From a virus: DNA of 31,936 nucleotides. Shown here in pieces: positions 5,179 through 23,011 of the stretch. Made by a program: the position numbers and the translations under genes. The stretch is from IMG/VR virus record IMGVR_UViG_3300027668_000057, positions 1 to 31,936 of that record, one strand, 5' to 3'. The notes under the pieces are model-generated. The model was not told where the DNA came from. It saw only the letters and a list, made by a program, of their open reading frames with translations, and did no database searches. Position 1 is the first letter of the stretch; each line of letters starts with the position of its first letter.

Positions 5179-6054
5179 ATGCCACACAATAACCACGTAG
5201 AAGACGGATTCAACGTCGATGTTGGAATGATGCAACCAGATGAAGCTAAGAATTATTACTTAGATCTTGCAGGTGATTGGGAAGATCCTAATCCTGAACC
5301 ACGCATTGTTATGCATGAAGGTATAAGAGTTGTAAGAGATGATGACTTAGTTGGATCAAAGGTCCGCGGTGGTGATTGTTTAATGTCAAGTATCAAAGAA
5401 GATATTATTGTGTATGTCCAACCAAGAACTGGTTTGGCTGGTGTAAGTATATTAGATGTTGCAAAAAGACACAATAAAAGTGTGCGTTTGTTTATGCCCT
5501 CATCTAAAAGAATTTCATCTCATCAAGCATGTTGTATAGAGCAAGGAGCAGAAGCATCCTTCCATAGAATTGCAGCCATGCCTAACCTAAACCTAATTGC
5601 TAAGAAGTGGGCTGATGAGAATCCAAATGCATTCTTTATTCCCTTAGGACTTAAACACAAATTAGTTACAGCAGGAATGGTAAAGGTTGCCAGTAAGATT
5701 AAAGAACCTGATGTTGTCTATGTTGCTACATCAACCGGTGTATTGACACGTTCATTACAGATAGCTTGGCCTAATGCAGAGTTTGTATCTGTAGCAGTAA
5801 GTAGAAATATGAAAGCAGGTGAATTAGGTAGGGCGCAGGTTATATCTGAGGCACGTGCATTTACTGCGCCAGAGAAGCCAGAGAACCTACCTCCATTTCC
5901 AAACATTGCTACATATGATGGTAAGGTATGGAAATTTATTCCAAAACATTCTGATAAAGATATACTATTTTGGAACGTAGGTAAAGAACCTGCATTGACA
6001 GATGAAACACTATATGAAACAGATAGCTATAGGGAATGGGATAAGAACTTATGA
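5179..6054 (+). CDS. Fold-type II PLP-dependent enzyme-like protein, 291 aa
   Basis: Starts at ATG 5179 after GGAAAAC. The segment VVRDDDLVGSKVRGGD (residues 51-66) resembles the ED-L-x-GG-x-K-x-R lead-in of ACC-deaminase/tryptophan-synthase-beta-like enzymes, with K61 as the candidate pyridoxal-phosphate lysine. VYVATSTGVLTRSLQIAWPNAEFVSVAV near 190-217 resembles the phosphate-binding Gly/Ser loop followed by a Rossmann-like strand. Related phage proteins occur in thymidine/pyrimidine hypermodification operons, where the PLP enzyme decarboxylates or rearranges an amino acid attached to the base. The product on phage DNA cannot be predicted. It overlaps the next gene by four bases (ATGA). Confidence 0.55.
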   Translation: MPHNNHVEDGFNVDVGMMQPDEAKNYYLDLAGDWEDPNPEPRIVMHEGIRVVRDDDLVGSKVRGGDCLMSSIKEDIIVYVQPRTGLAGVSILDVAKRHNKSVRLFMPSSKRISSHQACCIEQGAEASFHRIAAMPNLNLIAKKWADENPNAFFIPLGLKHKLVTAGMVKVASKIKEPDVVYVATSTGVLTRSLQIAWPNAEFVSVAVSRNMKAGELGRAQVISEARAFTAPEKPENLPPFPNIATYDGKVWKFIPKHSDKDILFWNVGKEPALTDETLYETDSYREWDKNL

Positions 6055-17513: not shown

Positions 17514-19814
17514 ATGACGTCTATTTTCGTAACCAAGCGCAGTGGTGAAACTGAGCCATTTAACATTAACAAAATTCATCGTGTTCTAGAATGGGCCTGT
17601 AACGATTTAATTGGTGTAAGTATCTCAGAGATAGAGATGCGCGCAAATGTTCAATTATATAATGAGATGGAGTCTGTTAATATTCATGACCTCCTTATCA
17701 AATCTTCAGCTGAACTAATCACTGAGTCAACCCCTAACTATCAAACCGTAGCAGCTAGGCTTATTAATTATAAGCTTAAAAAAGTAGTCTATGGTGACAA
17801 ACAACCATGGGCTCTGAAAGAAATCATTGACCATAATATTGAAGCTGGTGTATACGATAAAGATATCCTAAATCAGTATTCAGAATCTGAATTAGATTAT
17901 ATTGATTCACATATTATAGATCACAGTAGGGATGATGATTTCACCTATGCTGGCATGGAGCAAATGCGTTCTAAGTATTTAGTACAGAACAGATCAACTG
18001 GTGTTATATATGAAACACCTCAAGTGTTATACATTATGATTGCCATGACTTTGTTTGGCAAATACAATGGAAGACGCATGCAGTATGTTAAGGACTTCTA
18101 TAACGCTACCAGTCAATTCTATATCTCATTGCCAACACCTATTATGGCTGGAGTACGTACACCTACGAGACAGTTTTCTTCGTGTGTAGTTCTTGAGACC
18201 AATGATTCATTAGATTCTATTAATGCCACCAGCACTTCTATTGTTAAATACATTAGTAAGAAAGCTGGCTTAGGTATTAACGCTGGTAAGATTCGTGCAG
18301 TGGGTTCACACATTGGTGATGGTTCGGTTGTGCATACTGGTATGATACCATTCCTTAAACTATTCCAAGCTTCTGTTAAGTCTTGTTCACAAGGTGGAGT
18401 ACGTGGCGGAGCAGCAACTGTCTATATGCCTGTATGGCATTATGAATTCGAAGATCTTGTTGTACTTAAAAACAATAGAGGTACGGATGAAACTCGTGTG
18501 CGTAACATGGACTATGCATTCCAATTTAACAAGTTAATGTACGAGAGATTATTAACCGGTGGAAACATTACATTTTTTAGCCCTCATGATGTACCTGGAT
18601 TATATGATGCATTTTTTGAGGACCAAGATAAGTTCAAAGAGTTATACGAGAAGTATGAAAAGACCCGTAAGATTCGTAAGAAAACATTACCAGCAGTTGA
18701 GGTCTTCTCACAATTCCTAACCGAGCGTAAAGAGACAGGCCGGATCTATCTACAGAATGTAGACCATGCAAATACACATGGTTCGTTTATCGAGAAGCAG
18801 GCACCGATACACCAGTCAAACCTTTGCTGTGAGATAACATTGCCAAGTCATGGACTAGAGTCTTATGATGATGCAAACAAAGGTGAGATTAGTCTATGTA
18901 CCTTGAGTGCAATCAACTGGGGATTAATTAATGACCCTAAGGATTTCGAGAAGTACTGTGATTTAGCTGTACGTTCCCTTGATGCTTTATTAGATTATCA
19001 AGATTACCCAGTTCTTGCAGCACAGAGATCAACAATGAACCGCCGTCCTCTAGGTGTTGGTATCATTAACTTTGCGTATTTCTTAGCGAAGCGTGGATTA
19101 AAGTACAATGATGAGGCATTAGCCACTGTTGATGAGTATGCCGAGGCTTGGAGCTATTATTTGATCAAATCGAGCGTAAATCTAGCAAAAGAGCGAGGTA
19201 AATGCTATAAAAACCTAGAGACTAAATACGGCCATGGTATACTACCGATAGACACCTACAAGCAAGAGGTCAATGAATTAGTCAAGCCGAAGCAAAGAAT
19301 GCCATGGTCGGCGCTCAGGAAGGAGCTTTTGTCCCACGGCATCAGAAATTCAACATTAATGGCTATTATGCCCGCAGAAACGTCTGCACAGATCAGTAAT
19401 TCAACAAATGGCATAGAACCACCGCGTGCATTAGTATCTTACAAGCAATCGAAGGACGGAGTGCTAGCACAGGTTGTACCTAACATCCACAACTTGAAAA
19501 ACAAGTATGATTTGTTATGGGATCAGGAAGGACCTGAAGGTTATCTAAAAATTATGGCAGTGCTTCAGAAGTATATTGATCAAGGTATATCTGTTAACAC
19601 CAGTTATAACCCAGCTCAGTACGAAGATAACAAAGTTCCCATGTCAGAGATGATGAAAGATCTAATCACATTCTATAAGTACGGAGGTAAACAATTGTAT
19701 TACTTTAATACAAATGATCAAGCAACAGAAGATGAGTCTACTATGGATTATGAACGTAAAGATTTTAAGTCTGATGAAGAGTATGATGACTATTGTGAAA
19801 GTTGTGTCTTATAG
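17514..19814 (+). CDS. nrdA: Ribonucleotide reductase class Ia large subunit, 766 aa
   Basis: Reduces ribonucleoside diphosphates to deoxy forms together with NrdB (21935). An N-terminal ATP-cone (FVTKRSGETEPFNINKIHRVLEWAC) is followed by the catalytic barrel: RQFSSCVV contains the first redox Cys, SNLCCEI the N-x-C-x-E radical site, and ISLCTLSAINWG the second redox Cys. LYYFNTND gives the radical-transfer tyrosine pair, and the tail ESCVL provides the C-x-x-C shuttle recharged by the glutaredoxin at 23008. Length is near the usual 750-760. GGAG precedes ATG 17514. Confidence 0.95.
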   Translation: MTSIFVTKRSGETEPFNINKIHRVLEWACNDLIGVSISEIEMRANVQLYNEMESVNIHDLLIKSSAELITESTPNYQTVAARLINYKLKKVVYGDKQPWALKEIIDHNIEAGVYDKDILNQYSESELDYIDSHIIDHSRDDDFTYAGMEQMRSKYLVQNRSTGVIYETPQVLYIMIAMTLFGKYNGRRMQYVKDFYNATSQFYISLPTPIMAGVRTPTRQFSSCVVLETNDSLDSINATSTSIVKYISKKAGLGINAGKIRAVGSHIGDGSVVHTGMIPFLKLFQASVKSCSQGGVRGGAATVYMPVWHYEFEDLVVLKNNRGTDETRVRNMDYAFQFNKLMYERLLTGGNITFFSPHDVPGLYDAFFEDQDKFKELYEKYEKTRKIRKKTLPAVEVFSQFLTERKETGRIYLQNVDHANTHGSFIEKQAPIHQSNLCCEITLPSHGLESYDDANKGEISLCTLSAINWGLINDPKDFEKYCDLAVRSLDALLDYQDYPVLAAQRSTMNRRPLGVGIINFAYFLAKRGLKYNDEALATVDEYAEAWSYYLIKSSVNLAKERGKCYKNLETKYGHGILPIDTYKQEVNELVKPKQRMPWSALRKELLSHGIRNSTLMAIMPAETSAQISNSTNGIEPPRALVSYKQSKDGVLAQVVPNIHNLKNKYDLLWDQEGPEGYLKIMAVLQKYIDQGISVNTSYNPAQYEDNKVPMSEMMKDLITFYKYGGKQLYYFNTNDQATEDESTMDYERKDFKSDEEYDDYCESCVL

Positions 19815-19838
19815 TATACAAAGTAAATTATAAGAAAC

Positions 19839-20030
19839 ATGTGGTCTGGTGTAGAGGAAATATATCCGGTACACACTAGCATGTTGCAGTCTCCGCAAGG
19901 TGCTTCGGTGCTTAAAGAGTCTGTAACAGAAAGGCCATATGATAATACTGAGTATAGACCAGTGCGACCACCCAAACCACCCTATGATATAACAGATTAT
20001 CGCTATTCTAATCTACTAGGAATTTGTTAG
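19839..20030 (+). CDS. Small Pro/Tyr-rich hypothetical protein, 63 aa
   Basis: Open frame beginning 25 bases after nrdA with no convincing ribosome binding site (AAGAAAC only). The second half repeats a Pro-Tyr-Asp pattern (RPYDNTEYRPVRPPKPPYDITDYRY), giving a low-complexity proline-rich tail that could bind a partner protein. No family recognised; it could also be a chance frame. Confidence 0.4.
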   Translation: MWSGVEEIYPVHTSMLQSPQGASVLKESVTERPYDNTEYRPVRPPKPPYDITDYRYSNLLGIC

Positions 20031-20034
20031 AATA

Positions 20035-20076
20035 TTATTCTACAAAAGTGTAAGGTTATAGAATAATCTTTCCTTA
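20035..20076 (+). terminator. Possible weak terminator after nrdA region
   Basis: Inverted repeat ATTATTCTA (20035-20043) / TAGAATAAT (20060-20068), 16-base loop, then CTTTCCTT. The long loop and interrupted T-run make it weak, but it lies between the nrdA transcript and the next promoter. Confidence 0.3.
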
Positions 20077-20110
20077 TTACAAAATGTTATAAAAATAGTT
20101 GCATTTACTG

Positions 20111-20139
20111 TGTACTTACCCTATAAATCATGTTATAAT
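20111..20139 (+). promoter_or_regulatory. TGTACT-N17-TATAAT promoter upstream of 20184
   Basis: TGTACT 20111-20116, TATAAT 20134-20139 with TGT extension, spacing 17. It heads two small membrane-protein genes and probably the tmRNA. Confidence 0.7.
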
Positions 20140-20183
20140 ATTACCATAAGTTAATAAAACAGAACTAAAGGATATTATAAATA

Positions 20184-20333
20184 ATGATGAATGAATTCTT
20201 AATTAGTGCAGGAAGCGTGTTTGTTATGATAATTGCTGGTATAGCTTTATTGTCAAACTTCTTCTTCCCCCTATTCCTTAAACATAATGATAAAATGAAC
20301 GAACAGTTTAAGGATGAAACACCTTCGGAATAA
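20184..20333 (+). CDS. Small single-pass membrane protein, 49 aa
   Basis: AAAGGA (20167-20172) precedes ATG 20184. The product MMNEFLISAG then a hydrophobic helix (SVFVMIIAGIALLSNFFFPLFL) and a charged tail (KHNDKMNEQFKDETPSE). N-out/C-in orientation is likely from charge. No family recognised. Immediately followed by another small membrane protein, so the two may act together. Confidence 0.65.
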   Translation: MMNEFLISAGSVFVMIIAGIALLSNFFFPLFLKHNDKMNEQFKDETPSE

Positions 20334-20370
20334 GGCTAAACTATTTTTAAAAAACGACATAGGAGAATAT

Positions 20371-20598
20371 ATGTTAGATAAAATCACGAACGGCGTTTCA
20401 GCCGCAACAGCAATATCAATGAGTTTAATTGGTCTCGCGATCATGTTACAAATTGTCTTCGGTGGAGCAGTACCTTTCTTAGGTGGTGATGTCATTGGAA
20501 CAGTTATTGGTATCGTTACACAGCTGGGTGACGCTGGTTTAGTAGGTTTAATTTCTGCTGCGGTATTGTGGAAGCTACTATCTCATGATGATGCATAA
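20371..20598 (+). CDS. Two-helix membrane protein, holin-like, 75 aa
   Basis: A strong AGGAGA (20361-20366) decides for ATG 20371 over an upstream in-frame start. Two hydrophobic helices (ISMSLIGLAIMLQIVFG and AGLVGLISAAVLWKLLS) flank a Gly-rich loop (GGAVPFLGGDVIG); the C-terminus is short and charged. The size and two-helix topology fit class II holins, which time lysis, but no lysozyme lies beside it and no motif proves it. A TATAAATA sequence at 20176-20183 could give late expression. Confidence 0.6.
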   Translation: MLDKITNGVSAATAISMSLIGLAIMLQIVFGGAVPFLGGDVIGTVIGIVTQLGDAGLVGLISAAVLWKLLSHDDA

Positions 20599-20624
20599 CA
20601 TTCATTATTCAATGAAGTGAGTAT

Positions 20625-20860
20625 AACGACGTAAAGGTTTAAGGGTAGAGGCAATTAAGACGGGGGTTCGACTCCCCCCTCCTCCACCAAATAATATTGT
20701 GAGGTAGTATTATTTGGTGGGGGAGACACGGCATCGATTAGTTAGCATAATCGCCTAAAACTCGTCAGTCAACAAAGACTTAAACATGAAAAATTTAAAC
20801 GGCAATCAAAGCGTTTATGCACTAGCTGCTTAGTCAGTTAGTTGAGGTTTTCTCCGGAGT
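20625..20860 (+). ncRNA. ssrA: Circularly permuted two-piece tmRNA
   Basis: The acceptor piece comes first: T-arm GGGGG-TTCGACT-CCCCC (20662-20678), acceptor strand CTCCTCC (20679-20685), A86 and encoded CCA (20687-20689). The coding piece starts at 20719 with GGGGGAGACACGGCATCGA, the tmRNA 5' consensus. GGGGGAG (20719-20725) pairs with CTCCTCC in all seven positions (one G-U). The intervening 20690-20718 extends the same helix, so the precursor forms an 18-bp hairpin with an 11-base loop that must be processed to yield two RNAs. TAAGGG near 20639-20644 can pair with CCCTTA 20861-20866. The outer ends are estimates. It rescues stalled ribosomes and tags the peptides. Gene order matches alphaproteobacterial/cyanobacterial permuted ssrA. 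Confidence 0.9.
20771..20833 (+). other. tmRNA tag-peptide reading frame
   Basis: After CAGTC (20766-20770), equivalent to the UAGUC that precedes the resume codon in tmRNAs, an in-frame run of 20 codons begins AAC AAA GAC and ends at TAG 20831-20833 with C-terminus SVYALAA. ALAA is the usual ClpXP-recognised tag end. The first codon is AAC rather than the usual Ala codon, so the exact resume position is uncertain. Confidence 0.7.
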
Positions 20861-20890
20861 CCCTTATCACCCAATACTCCGGTCTTTTTT
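20854..20890 (+). terminator. Terminator after the tmRNA
   Basis: CCGGAGT (20854-20860) / ACTCCGG (20876-20882), 15-base loop, followed by TCTTTTTT (20883-20890). Ends the tmRNA transcript just before the IscA-like gene; part of the 5' arm may belong to the tmRNA itself. Confidence 0.65.
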
Positions 20891-20904
20891 ATATAGATAA
20901 TACT

Positions 20905-21213
20905 ATGATTACACTCACAGATAAAGCAGTAGAGAAATTACTAGTATTAGTTGAAGGTCGCAAGCTAAGGATATTAGTGCGGACCACCGGCTGTTCTGGC
21001 CTTGCTTACCATTTAGAGTATGCAGATACAATCCAACCAGAAGATTTAGATTACTCCCAAAGAGGAGTAGCCATTGTTGTTGATCCTAAATCAATAGCGT
21101 ATGTTGATGGTTGTGAAATAGATTATATAACGCAAGGCCTCAATGAAGGATTCGAATTCTACAACCCTAAAGAAAAAGCTCGTTGTGGATGTGGAGAATC
21201 ATTTCAAATATAG
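20905..21213 (+). CDS. IscA/ErpA-type iron-sulfur carrier, 102 aa
   Basis: A-type Fe-S carrier protein: ITLTDKAVEKLL start, RTTGCSGLAYHLEY with C30, and a C-terminal NPKEKARCGCGESF with C94 and C96, giving the conserved Cys-(63)-Cys-x-Cys set. It would bind and deliver Fe-S clusters. IscA-like genes are known in marine T4-like phages, where they are thought to support host Fe-S proteins during infection. ATG 20905 gives the family N-terminus; the upstream in-frame extension runs through the terminator and is rejected. The ribosome binding site is weak, and the terminator hairpin lies only 14 bases upstream, so expression may depend on read-through. Confidence 0.9.
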   Translation: MITLTDKAVEKLLVLVEGRKLRILVRTTGCSGLAYHLEYADTIQPEDLDYSQRGVAIVVDPKSIAYVDGCEIDYITQGLNEGFEFYNPKEKARCGCGESFQI

Positions 21214-21214
21214 A

Positions 21215-21243
21215 TGTACATTCAGTACAAACTATGATATAAT
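21215..21243 (+). promoter_or_regulatory. TGTACA-N17-TATAAT promoter upstream of 21250
   Basis: TGTACA 21215-21220, TATAAT 21238-21243 with TGA extension, spacing 17. The -10 ends 6 bases before ATG 21250, so the first transcribed base should be at or next to the start codon. Confidence 0.75.
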
Positions 21244-21249
21244 GTATAC

Positions 21250-21417
21250 ATGAGTTTAATAAAAGAACCTTTAGGTGACGGCAATGTCCGGGTCACCAAA
21301 TTCGAAGATTACAAAAGATATAAGTTTGGCAATCCTGACACAGTCTGGATGGAGTTCGAACCTATACGCATATTTCCAGATATATGGGGACAATTTAATA
21401 CCGAGGATGATGAATGA
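21250..21417 (+). CDS. Small hypothetical protein, 55 aa, probably leaderless
   Basis: MSLIKEPLGDGNVRVTKFEDYK continues to VWMEFEPIRIFPDIWGQF; soluble, acidic, no known family. There is no ribosome binding site: the promoter -10 element ends at 21243, so the mRNA should begin with, or within a base or two of, ATG 21250. The stop overlaps the next start (ATGA), supporting the frame. The first gene of the nrdB operon. Confidence 0.6.
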   Translation: MSLIKEPLGDGNVRVTKFEDYKRYKFGNPDTVWMEFEPIRIFPDIWGQFNTEDDE

Positions 21418-21938
21418 ATATATTTTACTTAGATAGTGATGCAAAGTCCAGCGCGGAGATGCACTTAGATAAACATTGTAGTAAGATGCTGGTGGAATAT
21501 GCACAGCTAATGTCTACAGCTCACCGAGTTCTTGACGGTGTACCATATTATGACAAGAATAAAATAGGCTCTAAGATTAAACGATGGACACATAAAGAAG
21601 ATGGTTTATATAAAGCTTCGCATGTTAATCATCCGAGCAATGTGTGGCTTCGAGAAAGTATAAATAACTACGCATTCCTCTATTCGATGTGGTGCCACTT
21701 ACATAATGAATTCGTTATACGTTACGGCAAAGATCATATGTCGTATGTAAAACTCAAAGAAATATTAAAGAGCCCACCACTTAATTGTGGTGATAATCCG
21801 TTTACACAACCGACTCAAGCCATGCCCGACGATGTAAAAAACGCCGATAGCATTACTGCCTATAGAAATTATTATATGAAGTATAAGCATCATATAGCAG
21901 CATGGAAGACAGTCGTACCAACTTGGTATATAACATGA
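21414..21938 (+). CDS. Conserved-type marine phage protein, 174 aa
   Basis: MNIFYLDSDAKSSAEMHLDKHCSKMLVEYAQLMSTAHRVLDG is followed by YKASHVNHPSNVWLRESINNYAFLYSMW and, near the end, TQAMPDDVKNADSITAYRNYYMKYK...TVVPTWY. I recall this His/Cys-containing pattern from many marine phages as an uncharacterised family; some annotations liken it to pyrimidine-dimer glycosylases, which I cannot confirm. Conserved D, H, K and Y residues suggest an enzyme. ATGA overlaps on both sides place it in the nrdB operon. Confidence 0.7.
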   Translation: MNIFYLDSDAKSSAEMHLDKHCSKMLVEYAQLMSTAHRVLDGVPYYDKNKIGSKIKRWTHKEDGLYKASHVNHPSNVWLRESINNYAFLYSMWCHLHNEFVIRYGKDHMSYVKLKEILKSPPLNCGDNPFTQPTQAMPDDVKNADSITAYRNYYMKYKHHIAAWKTVVPTWYIT

Positions 21939-23011
21939 GAAAATCAGTATTTAAAATAAACGTAAAGAACCACATGGAAAAGGATTTATTCTTTGATGAG
22001 GGTGTTGATATTGCACGGTACGATATGGTTAAATATCCAGCGCTGCAGAAATTGTACGAGAAGATGTTATCATTCTATTGGACACCAGACGAAGTCGATG
22101 TCACAAAAGATAAGATTGACTTTAATAAGTTAACAGAGAATGAGCAACATATCTTTACAAGTAATCTTAAGAGACAAATCTTATTAGACTCGGTTCAGGG
22201 TAGAAGTCCTGACTTGGCTCTATTGCCAATTGCAAGTAATCCTGAATTGGAGTTATTGATTGAGACATGGGCATTCTTTGAAACCATTCACTCACGTAGC
22301 TATACGCATGTTATTAGGAACACATACGCGAATCCTTCTAAGATCTTTGATGAGATCACCTCAATCCCACAAATCAGCGAGTGTGGTAATGCGATCTCAG
22401 AACATTATGACAACCTGATCAATTATAAGGGTCCTCACGGTAGTCCTAAGCATAAAAAGCTGTTGTATCTATGTATGATAAGTATATATATCCTAGAAGG
22501 TATTAGGTTCTATGTGAGCTTTGCATGTTCATGGGCATTTGCTGAGTTAAAGCAGATGGAAGGTAATGCTAAGATTATTAAACTCATCGCAAGAGATGAG
22601 AACTTACACCTTGCAGCATCTTTAAATATCATACGAACTTTAATCAAAGACGATAAAGAGTTTGTACAGATCAAAGAAGAAACTAAAGATGAAGTAATGC
22701 AATTATTTGAAGATGCATTAGTTCAAGAAGAGGAATGGTGTGATTACCTATTTGGCAATGGTTCAATGATTGGATTGAATGCTGAACTCCTTAAAGAATA
22801 TGTGCGATGGATTGGTGCAAAGAGAATTAAGTCTCTAAACTATGCTGTACCGTTCTCAACACATTTACATAACCCACTTCCATGGACAGAGAAATGGATA
22901 AGCGGCGGCGCAGTTCAAGTAGCTCCACAAGAAACTGAGATTACATCTTATGTCGTTGGTGGTACTAAACACGATGTAGATAAAACATCATTTAAAGGAT
23001 TAAGTTTATGA
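21935..23011 (+). CDS. nrdB: Ribonucleotide reductase class Ia small subunit, 358 aa
   Basis: Supplies the tyrosyl radical for NrdA. Iron ligands are seen in LLDSVQG (Asp), FFETIHSRSYTHVI (Glu, His and the radical Tyr in SRSYTHV), the FACSWAFAE region, and RDENLHLA (Glu, His). The length matches the family. The start at 21935 (ATGA overlap) is preferred over a longer in-frame start at 21902 because it gives MRKSVFKINVKNHMEKDLF, a normal NrdB N-terminus. Coupled by ATGA to the glutaredoxin. Confidence 0.95.
   Translation: MRKSVFKINVKNHMEKDLFFDEGVDIARYDMVKYPALQKLYEKMLSFYWTPDEVDVTKDKIDFNKLTENEQHIFTSNLKRQILLDSVQGRSPDLALLPIASNPELELLIETWAFFETIHSRSYTHVIRNTYANPSKIFDEITSIPQISECGNAISEHYDNLINYKGPHGSPKHKKLLYLCMISIYILEGIRFYVSFACSWAFAELKQMEGNAKIIKLIARDENLHLAASLNIIRTLIKDDKEFVQIKEETKDEVMQLFEDALVQEEEWCDYLFGNGSMIGLNAELLKEYVRWIGAKRIKSLNYAVPFSTHLHNPLPWTEKWISGGAVQVAPQETEITSYVVGGTKHDVDKTSFKGLSL

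Follow-up and report, generated by a model that had tools for sequence, protein, structure and literature searches.

An uncultured marine viral DNA of 31,936 nucleotides (IMG/VR record IMGVR_UViG_3300027668_000057, analyzed here in full and hereafter termed the window) raises the question of whether a T4-like phage encodes its own tmRNA as two pieces in circularly permuted order and, if so, which bacterial type the gene belongs to and what it does for the phage. A sequence-only reading of the DNA had proposed such a gene, together with a phage-specific tag. In a scan of the whole window against all Rfam models (cmscan/Infernal), tmRNA_permuted (RF04321) was matched on the plus strand at 20627–20833 with 94.6 bits, against a cut-off of 47 bits; the match spans the full model (1–213; E 2.4e-17 for the whole window) and is the sole Rfam match above its cut-off in the window. 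ARAGORN called no tmRNA in the window; it calls a permuted tmRNA with an identical tag in the relative L058, and ones with similar tags in other relatives, so that the miss looks like a limit of sensitivity. The RF04321 score, the presence of 39 distinct copies in viral contigs and the covariation described below exclude chance. On these comparisons, which bear out the proposal for both the permuted RNA and its phage-specific tag, the window phage (marine, T4-like) has a permuted tmRNA gene that is both intact and strongly conserved.

Layout of the permuted tmRNA gene

The acceptor piece (20625–20689, plus strand, as are all features below) is supported by the RF04321 match and by covariation of a T-stem pair and of helix b. 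It contains the 5′ strands of helices formed with the coding piece (GACG at 20628–20631 and GCAATT at 20651–20656), a T-arm, the 3′ strand of the acceptor stem and an encoded CCA. The T-arm, GGGGG-TTCGACT-CCCCC (20662–20678), is seen in the predicted fold, and its T-stem pair varies among relatives (UA, UG, AU, CG or GC) with pairing never lost. The acceptor 3′ strand CTCCTCC (20679–20685), which includes U70, is supported by the RF04321 match, the fold and covariation. It pairs with GGGGGAG at 20719–20725 over the seven base pairs originally described, and pairing is complete (7/7) in all 28 rows of our alignment. The G3-U70 alanine identity pair is present as G-U at 3-70, and the corresponding columns (59/130) are invariant in the 28 sequences. 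Direct reading places the encoded CCA at 20687–20689, at the end of the acceptor piece and ahead of the coding piece that starts at 20719, as first noted. In five relatives (L041, L042, L053, L238 and L250) the acceptor end is encoded as ACCT, not ACCA, and the terminal A would therefore need to be added post-transcriptionally.

Between the two pieces lies an intervening segment of 29 nt (20690–20718), presumed to be excised, as its folding and the pairing of spacer ends in relatives suggest. It forms the distal part of a helix that continues the acceptor stem; in the predicted fold, stem and spacer make one continuous 21-bp helix with a 5-nt loop (MFE −30.8 kcal/mol), and not the 18-bp helix first described. 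Just 5′ of the acceptor piece, a short imperfect inverted repeat (AACATTCATT...AATGAAGTGA, 20597–20620) is kept in the relatives that reach that far, most weakly in L005; it could be a leader, belong to the precursor itself or act as a promoter element.

The coding piece (20719–20888; RF04321 match, alignment and covariation) begins with GGGGGAG, the 5′ strand of the acceptor stem, and its 3′ end is approximate, since it was set at a T-run. This T-run (20884–20890) resembles a terminator and may mark the end of the transcript; relatives have a T-rich stretch at the same place. The tag frame (20801–20833) reads GGC AAT CAA AGC GTT TAT GCA CTA GCT GCT TAG, that is, a resume codon GGC and a tag of 10 amino acids, GNQSVYALAA, with a ClpXP-type Ala-Ala terminus and a stop codon. 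The assignment rests on the open frame, on the ARAGORN call in L058, which places the resume codon at the same spot, and on the family of tags in relatives. The ALAA end of the 20-codon tag first proposed was thus correct. Its length was not; the longer frame is open only through upstream in-frame sequence, the codons ahead of the tag are not likewise kept open in relatives, and it is a unit of roughly 10 residues that aligns, so that comparison of the tags rejects the 20-codon version.

Two helices run through the tag codons. One is a hairpin spanning the resume codon (TAAACG...CGTTTA, 20796–20817; TAATCG...CGATTA in relatives), in which the pair formed by columns 210/225 is UA in 25 sequences and AU in three; this compensatory U-A to A-U change alters a tag residue from D to V, and accounts for SVYALAA in the window versus SDYALAA in relatives. 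The other (ACTAGCT/AGTTAGT, 20821–20842) covers the last tag codons and has three pairs changed on both sides. Past the stop codon is a pseudoknot (20843–20882; helices 8 and 9, 100% paired) formed by TGAGG (20843–20847) with CCTTA (20862–20866) and by CCGGAGT (20854–20860) with ACTCCGG (20876–20882), for which L239 offers a compensatory change, CAAGG with CCTTG.

Relatives, gene neighborhood and covariation

Relatives were gathered from viral contigs, first through an iscA-like neighboring gene and then by DNA pattern. A full-length RF04321 match above the cut-off was present in 36 of the 50 viral records with the iscA neighbor; among the other 14, several contigs begin just before iscA and most of those remaining represent distant iscA copies. 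A further set, which includes the published phages HTVC008M and Melnitz as well as contigs found by the tmRNA pattern, gave such a match in 18 of 25 records. From these, 39 distinct tmRNA sequences, including that of the window, were cut out. In 39/39 the tag frame is open and its last residues are ALAA or LLAA; the cutting script required Ala-Ala-stop to report a tag, but no cut-out copy lacked one. The tags include GNQSVYALAA, GNQSDYALAA, GNQNDYLLAA, GKNDYLLAA, GNNDYLLAA, DNYSDYALAA and similar forms.

The gene order around the tmRNA is also conserved. Upstream, a gene for a small (94 residues) putative membrane protein (20314–20598) was found in 37 of the 39 copies, and the two contigs without it start too close to the tmRNA. 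The conserved downstream neighbor, identified by homology and by its presence in relatives, is the iscA-like gene (20905–21213; Fe-S biosynthesis, PF01521), whose ATG at 20905 lies 71 nt past the stop codon of the tag. In the window, nrdA, the small membrane-protein gene, the tmRNA, the iscA-like gene and nrdB are grouped at 17514–23011. Among annotated phage records, just 10 match the iscA-like gene; none reaches 60% identity, and several look like bacterial entries. Elsewhere in the window, an ORF at 5179–6054 matches a phage family annotated as threonine dehydratase (phrog_7093, 5.5e-36).

Selection on the structure was examined in a 28-sequence alignment, with a 51-pair structure that includes the pseudoknot. 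Pairing was found in 99.5% of the cells, a figure favored by the structure having been read from the same alignment; sliding the partners cuts pairing to 34–49%. Compensatory double changes, which are less affected by the source of the structure, occupied 50 cells as against 14.5 in shuffles, and none of 500 shuffles was as high. These comparative data indicate that phage two-piece tmRNAs are under selection for both structure and tag.

Type and proposed role of the tmRNA

Two-piece tmRNAs are known in phages. One was published in 2022 for the marine phage Melnitz (PMC9004378); in an ARAGORN survey in the same work, 133 unique phage tmRNA structures included 53 two-piece forms, of which 50 came from marine or aquatic phages (PMC9004378), and another study, which lists 79 unique phage tmRNAs, combined the models as RF04321 (PMC11915505). 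The gene in the window is therefore less surprising than it had first seemed. Its type, however, is not the one implied at first. Kinship with alphaproteobacterial or SAR11 tmRNAs had been implied, but the model scores reject a SAR11 origin; the alpha model RF01849 gave only a partial match of 39.4 bits (gathering cut-off, 50 bits) and the cyanobacterial model RF01851 gave 31.5 bits, whereas the beta model RF01850 gave 83.9 bits, which is 0.1 bit under its gathering cut-off of 84 bits; a relative, G045, reaches 87.7 bits on the same model. By these scores, the window lineage is probably of the betaproteobacterial type. It resembles RF01850 in that this is the best clade model, matched over its full length, and in the CCA-first order and the downstream 3′ stem; it departs from RF01850 in the resume codon (GGC/GGA), in a divergent D-loop (GGCATCGATTAG) and in the tag, GN(Q/D/T)(S/N/I)(D/V)Y(A/L)LAA with shorter forms.

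The closest published systems are those of Melnitz (MZ577097), a phage of the Methylophilales clade OM43, and of the Pelagibacter phage HTVC008M (KC465899). Both are T4-like marine Kyanoviridae phages with a permuted tmRNA and, like the kin of the window, no detectable SmpB, and their tags also end in Ala-Ala (ANDNYVPVDYALAA and ANFNEYALAA, respectively). Their tmRNAs, unlike that of the window, are of the alpha type (RF01849, 106.7 bits for Melnitz and 83.8 for HTVC008M; RF01850, 25 and 56 bits). The setting differs as well; the Melnitz gene precedes one for a late-transcription coactivator and has a glutamine riboswitch on its 3′ side, whereas that of the window lies between the membrane-protein gene and iscA, and the Rfam scan detected no glutamine riboswitch in the window. 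By sequence comparison, the window adds to the few published phage two-piece tmRNAs a lineage of probable beta type, linked to iscA and kept throughout a clade of marine T4-like phages that are uncultured. The proteins of the window phage are nearest to those of Kyanoviridae, with 55.6% for gp32 (Melnitz) and, for the helicase, 61% (phage C48C1) and 59% (Melnitz). Our best guess for the host is a betaproteobacterium such as one of the OM43 clade; Melnitz, an OM43 phage with an alpha-type tmRNA, illustrates that tmRNA type and host can disagree.

We are confident, from the conserved structure and tag, that the gene specifies a functional phage-encoded, circularly permuted two-piece tmRNA, probably of the betaproteobacterial type, which would use the SmpB and ClpXP of the host. 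The precursor would fold with the spacer prolonging the acceptor stem, and by analogy with known permuted tmRNAs, host tRNA-processing enzymes would cut after the CCA (20689) and before G20719, releasing two RNAs, acceptor and coding, that stay joined through the acceptor stem and the helices of the tRNA domain. Alanyl-tRNA synthetase would charge the CCA end through G3-U70, host SmpB would bring the tmRNA to stalled ribosomes, translation would resume at GGC, adding (Ala)GNQSVYALAA, and the -LAA end would send the tagged product to ClpXP. Ten phage records, including the complete genomes of HTVC008M and Melnitz and a 140-kb relative, yielded no SmpB, which implies the use of host SmpB; since the window is a 32-kb fragment, an SmpB gene elsewhere in the window phage is possible. 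In lytic growth, with mRNA cut and ribosomes stalled, the phage tmRNA would most likely supplement or replace that of the host in ribosome recycling, although it could have been retained for another role.

One such role, suggested for Melnitz (PMC9004378), is tag-directed proteolysis of host or phage proteins, for amino-acid recycling or the timing of lysis, as the selected function beyond rescue. In its favor, the tag is phage-specific and its C-terminus conserved. Against it, the degron end is an ordinary bacterial one, and we identified no targeting element; moreover, at least one difference between tags (D to V) tracks base pairing in the RNA rather than selection on protein function. We consider this explanation unlikely. 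Much less probable still is a decoy that engages stalled ribosomes or SmpB and so interferes with host trans-translation. Such a decoy would need neither degron nor frame, yet the 39 distinct copies retain the frame of the tag with its stop codon, the -LAA end and the acceptor stem; the precedent, as cited in PMC11915505, is a tag-less tmRNA-like RNA of mycobacteriophage DS6A reported to be inhibitory. Phages can carry ssrA fragments from integration sites (PMC9004378), but a passively carried host fragment, or a pseudogene decaying after recent capture, is scarcely credible; gene order is fixed and the gene has diversified inside the phage clade, no collected copy has a broken tag, and the compensatory changes contradict such an explanation, provided that the alignment is correct.

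The origin by host capture that had been put forward is plausible as the ultimate source, but the presence of the gene in diversified forms across a phage clade is not what a recent acquisition would be expected to show. In a nucleotide search of phage records, the tmRNA gave only short partial matches, covering at most 20% of the query, most of them T-arm-like segments within genes for tRNA or tmRNA. In bacterial genomes, the acceptor stem together with the spacer had 12 exact matches, none recognizable by title as a donor.

Diversity of the intervening segment

Spacer length varies between 26 and 133 nt, and by sequence the spacers form several mutually unrelated classes. Nevertheless, each of the 31 distinct spacers tested has ends that pair (in total 294 of 341 positions, versus 137 in shuffles), and this persistence of pairing despite variation in length and sequence is consistent with a processing helix that is conserved. 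Almost identical tmRNA bodies can have different spacers, of 27 nt in L008 versus 133 nt in L011, and of 26 nt in L023 versus 133 nt in L025, and on the tree the 133-nt class cannot be explained with fewer than four changes. Together, these observations point to repeated exchange, gain or loss of spacers, or to recombination of the bodies. The clade shares all tRNA-domain features with the RF04321 permuted tmRNAs in general, but differs from them in having spacers that vary among near-identical bodies and that appear to be protein-coding in six relatives.

The six are the contigs with the 133-nt spacer (L011, L014, L017, L025, L026 and L027); the 29-nt spacer of the window lacks the ORF described here. 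The long spacer houses 126 nt of a 50-codon ORF (for example, L026:3646–3795), which starts 7 nt past the CCA and has its TAG stop about 20 nt into the coding piece of the tmRNA. The predicted product, MKEIIWHFSCK.C.GWWSIAV.D.W.PKKLFCPHCGKPY.YDGGD.ASI(R/K), is of the zinc-ribbon kind, with two CxxC motifs. It had no match in annotated phages, and a PHROGs search returned only weak matches to unknown families. Free-standing homologues of the ORF occur directly after iscA in L058 (85–88% amino acid identity over the shared 41–42 residues); in L048, a record with no tmRNA match, the homologue overlaps iscA at its start, and contigs L293–L296 have one with no iscA beside it (75%). Differences fall mostly at third codon positions (4, 3 and 16 for L011 versus L058, p = 0.0004); the third-position excess is seen in most comparisons and is not significant in some others. 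Given the free-standing homologues and this pattern, it is very likely that the ORF is a genuine small gene and that it has moved into the tmRNA spacer.

Cleavage of the tmRNA precursor would destroy the message of the ORF, which would lose its stop codon and leave a nonstop RNA. That expression of the ORF protein might in this way be coupled to the processing or abundance of the tmRNA is speculation; the broader suggestion, that the spacer is an exchangeable slot able to house a protein gene, with tmRNA maturation coupled to ORF expression, is put forward as a rather improbable reading. We found no report of a protein gene in a tmRNA spacer in the portion of the open-licence literature consulted. 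If expressed, the spacer ORF would represent a gene arrangement in which protein-coding sequence extends over the segment removed from a split RNA gene.
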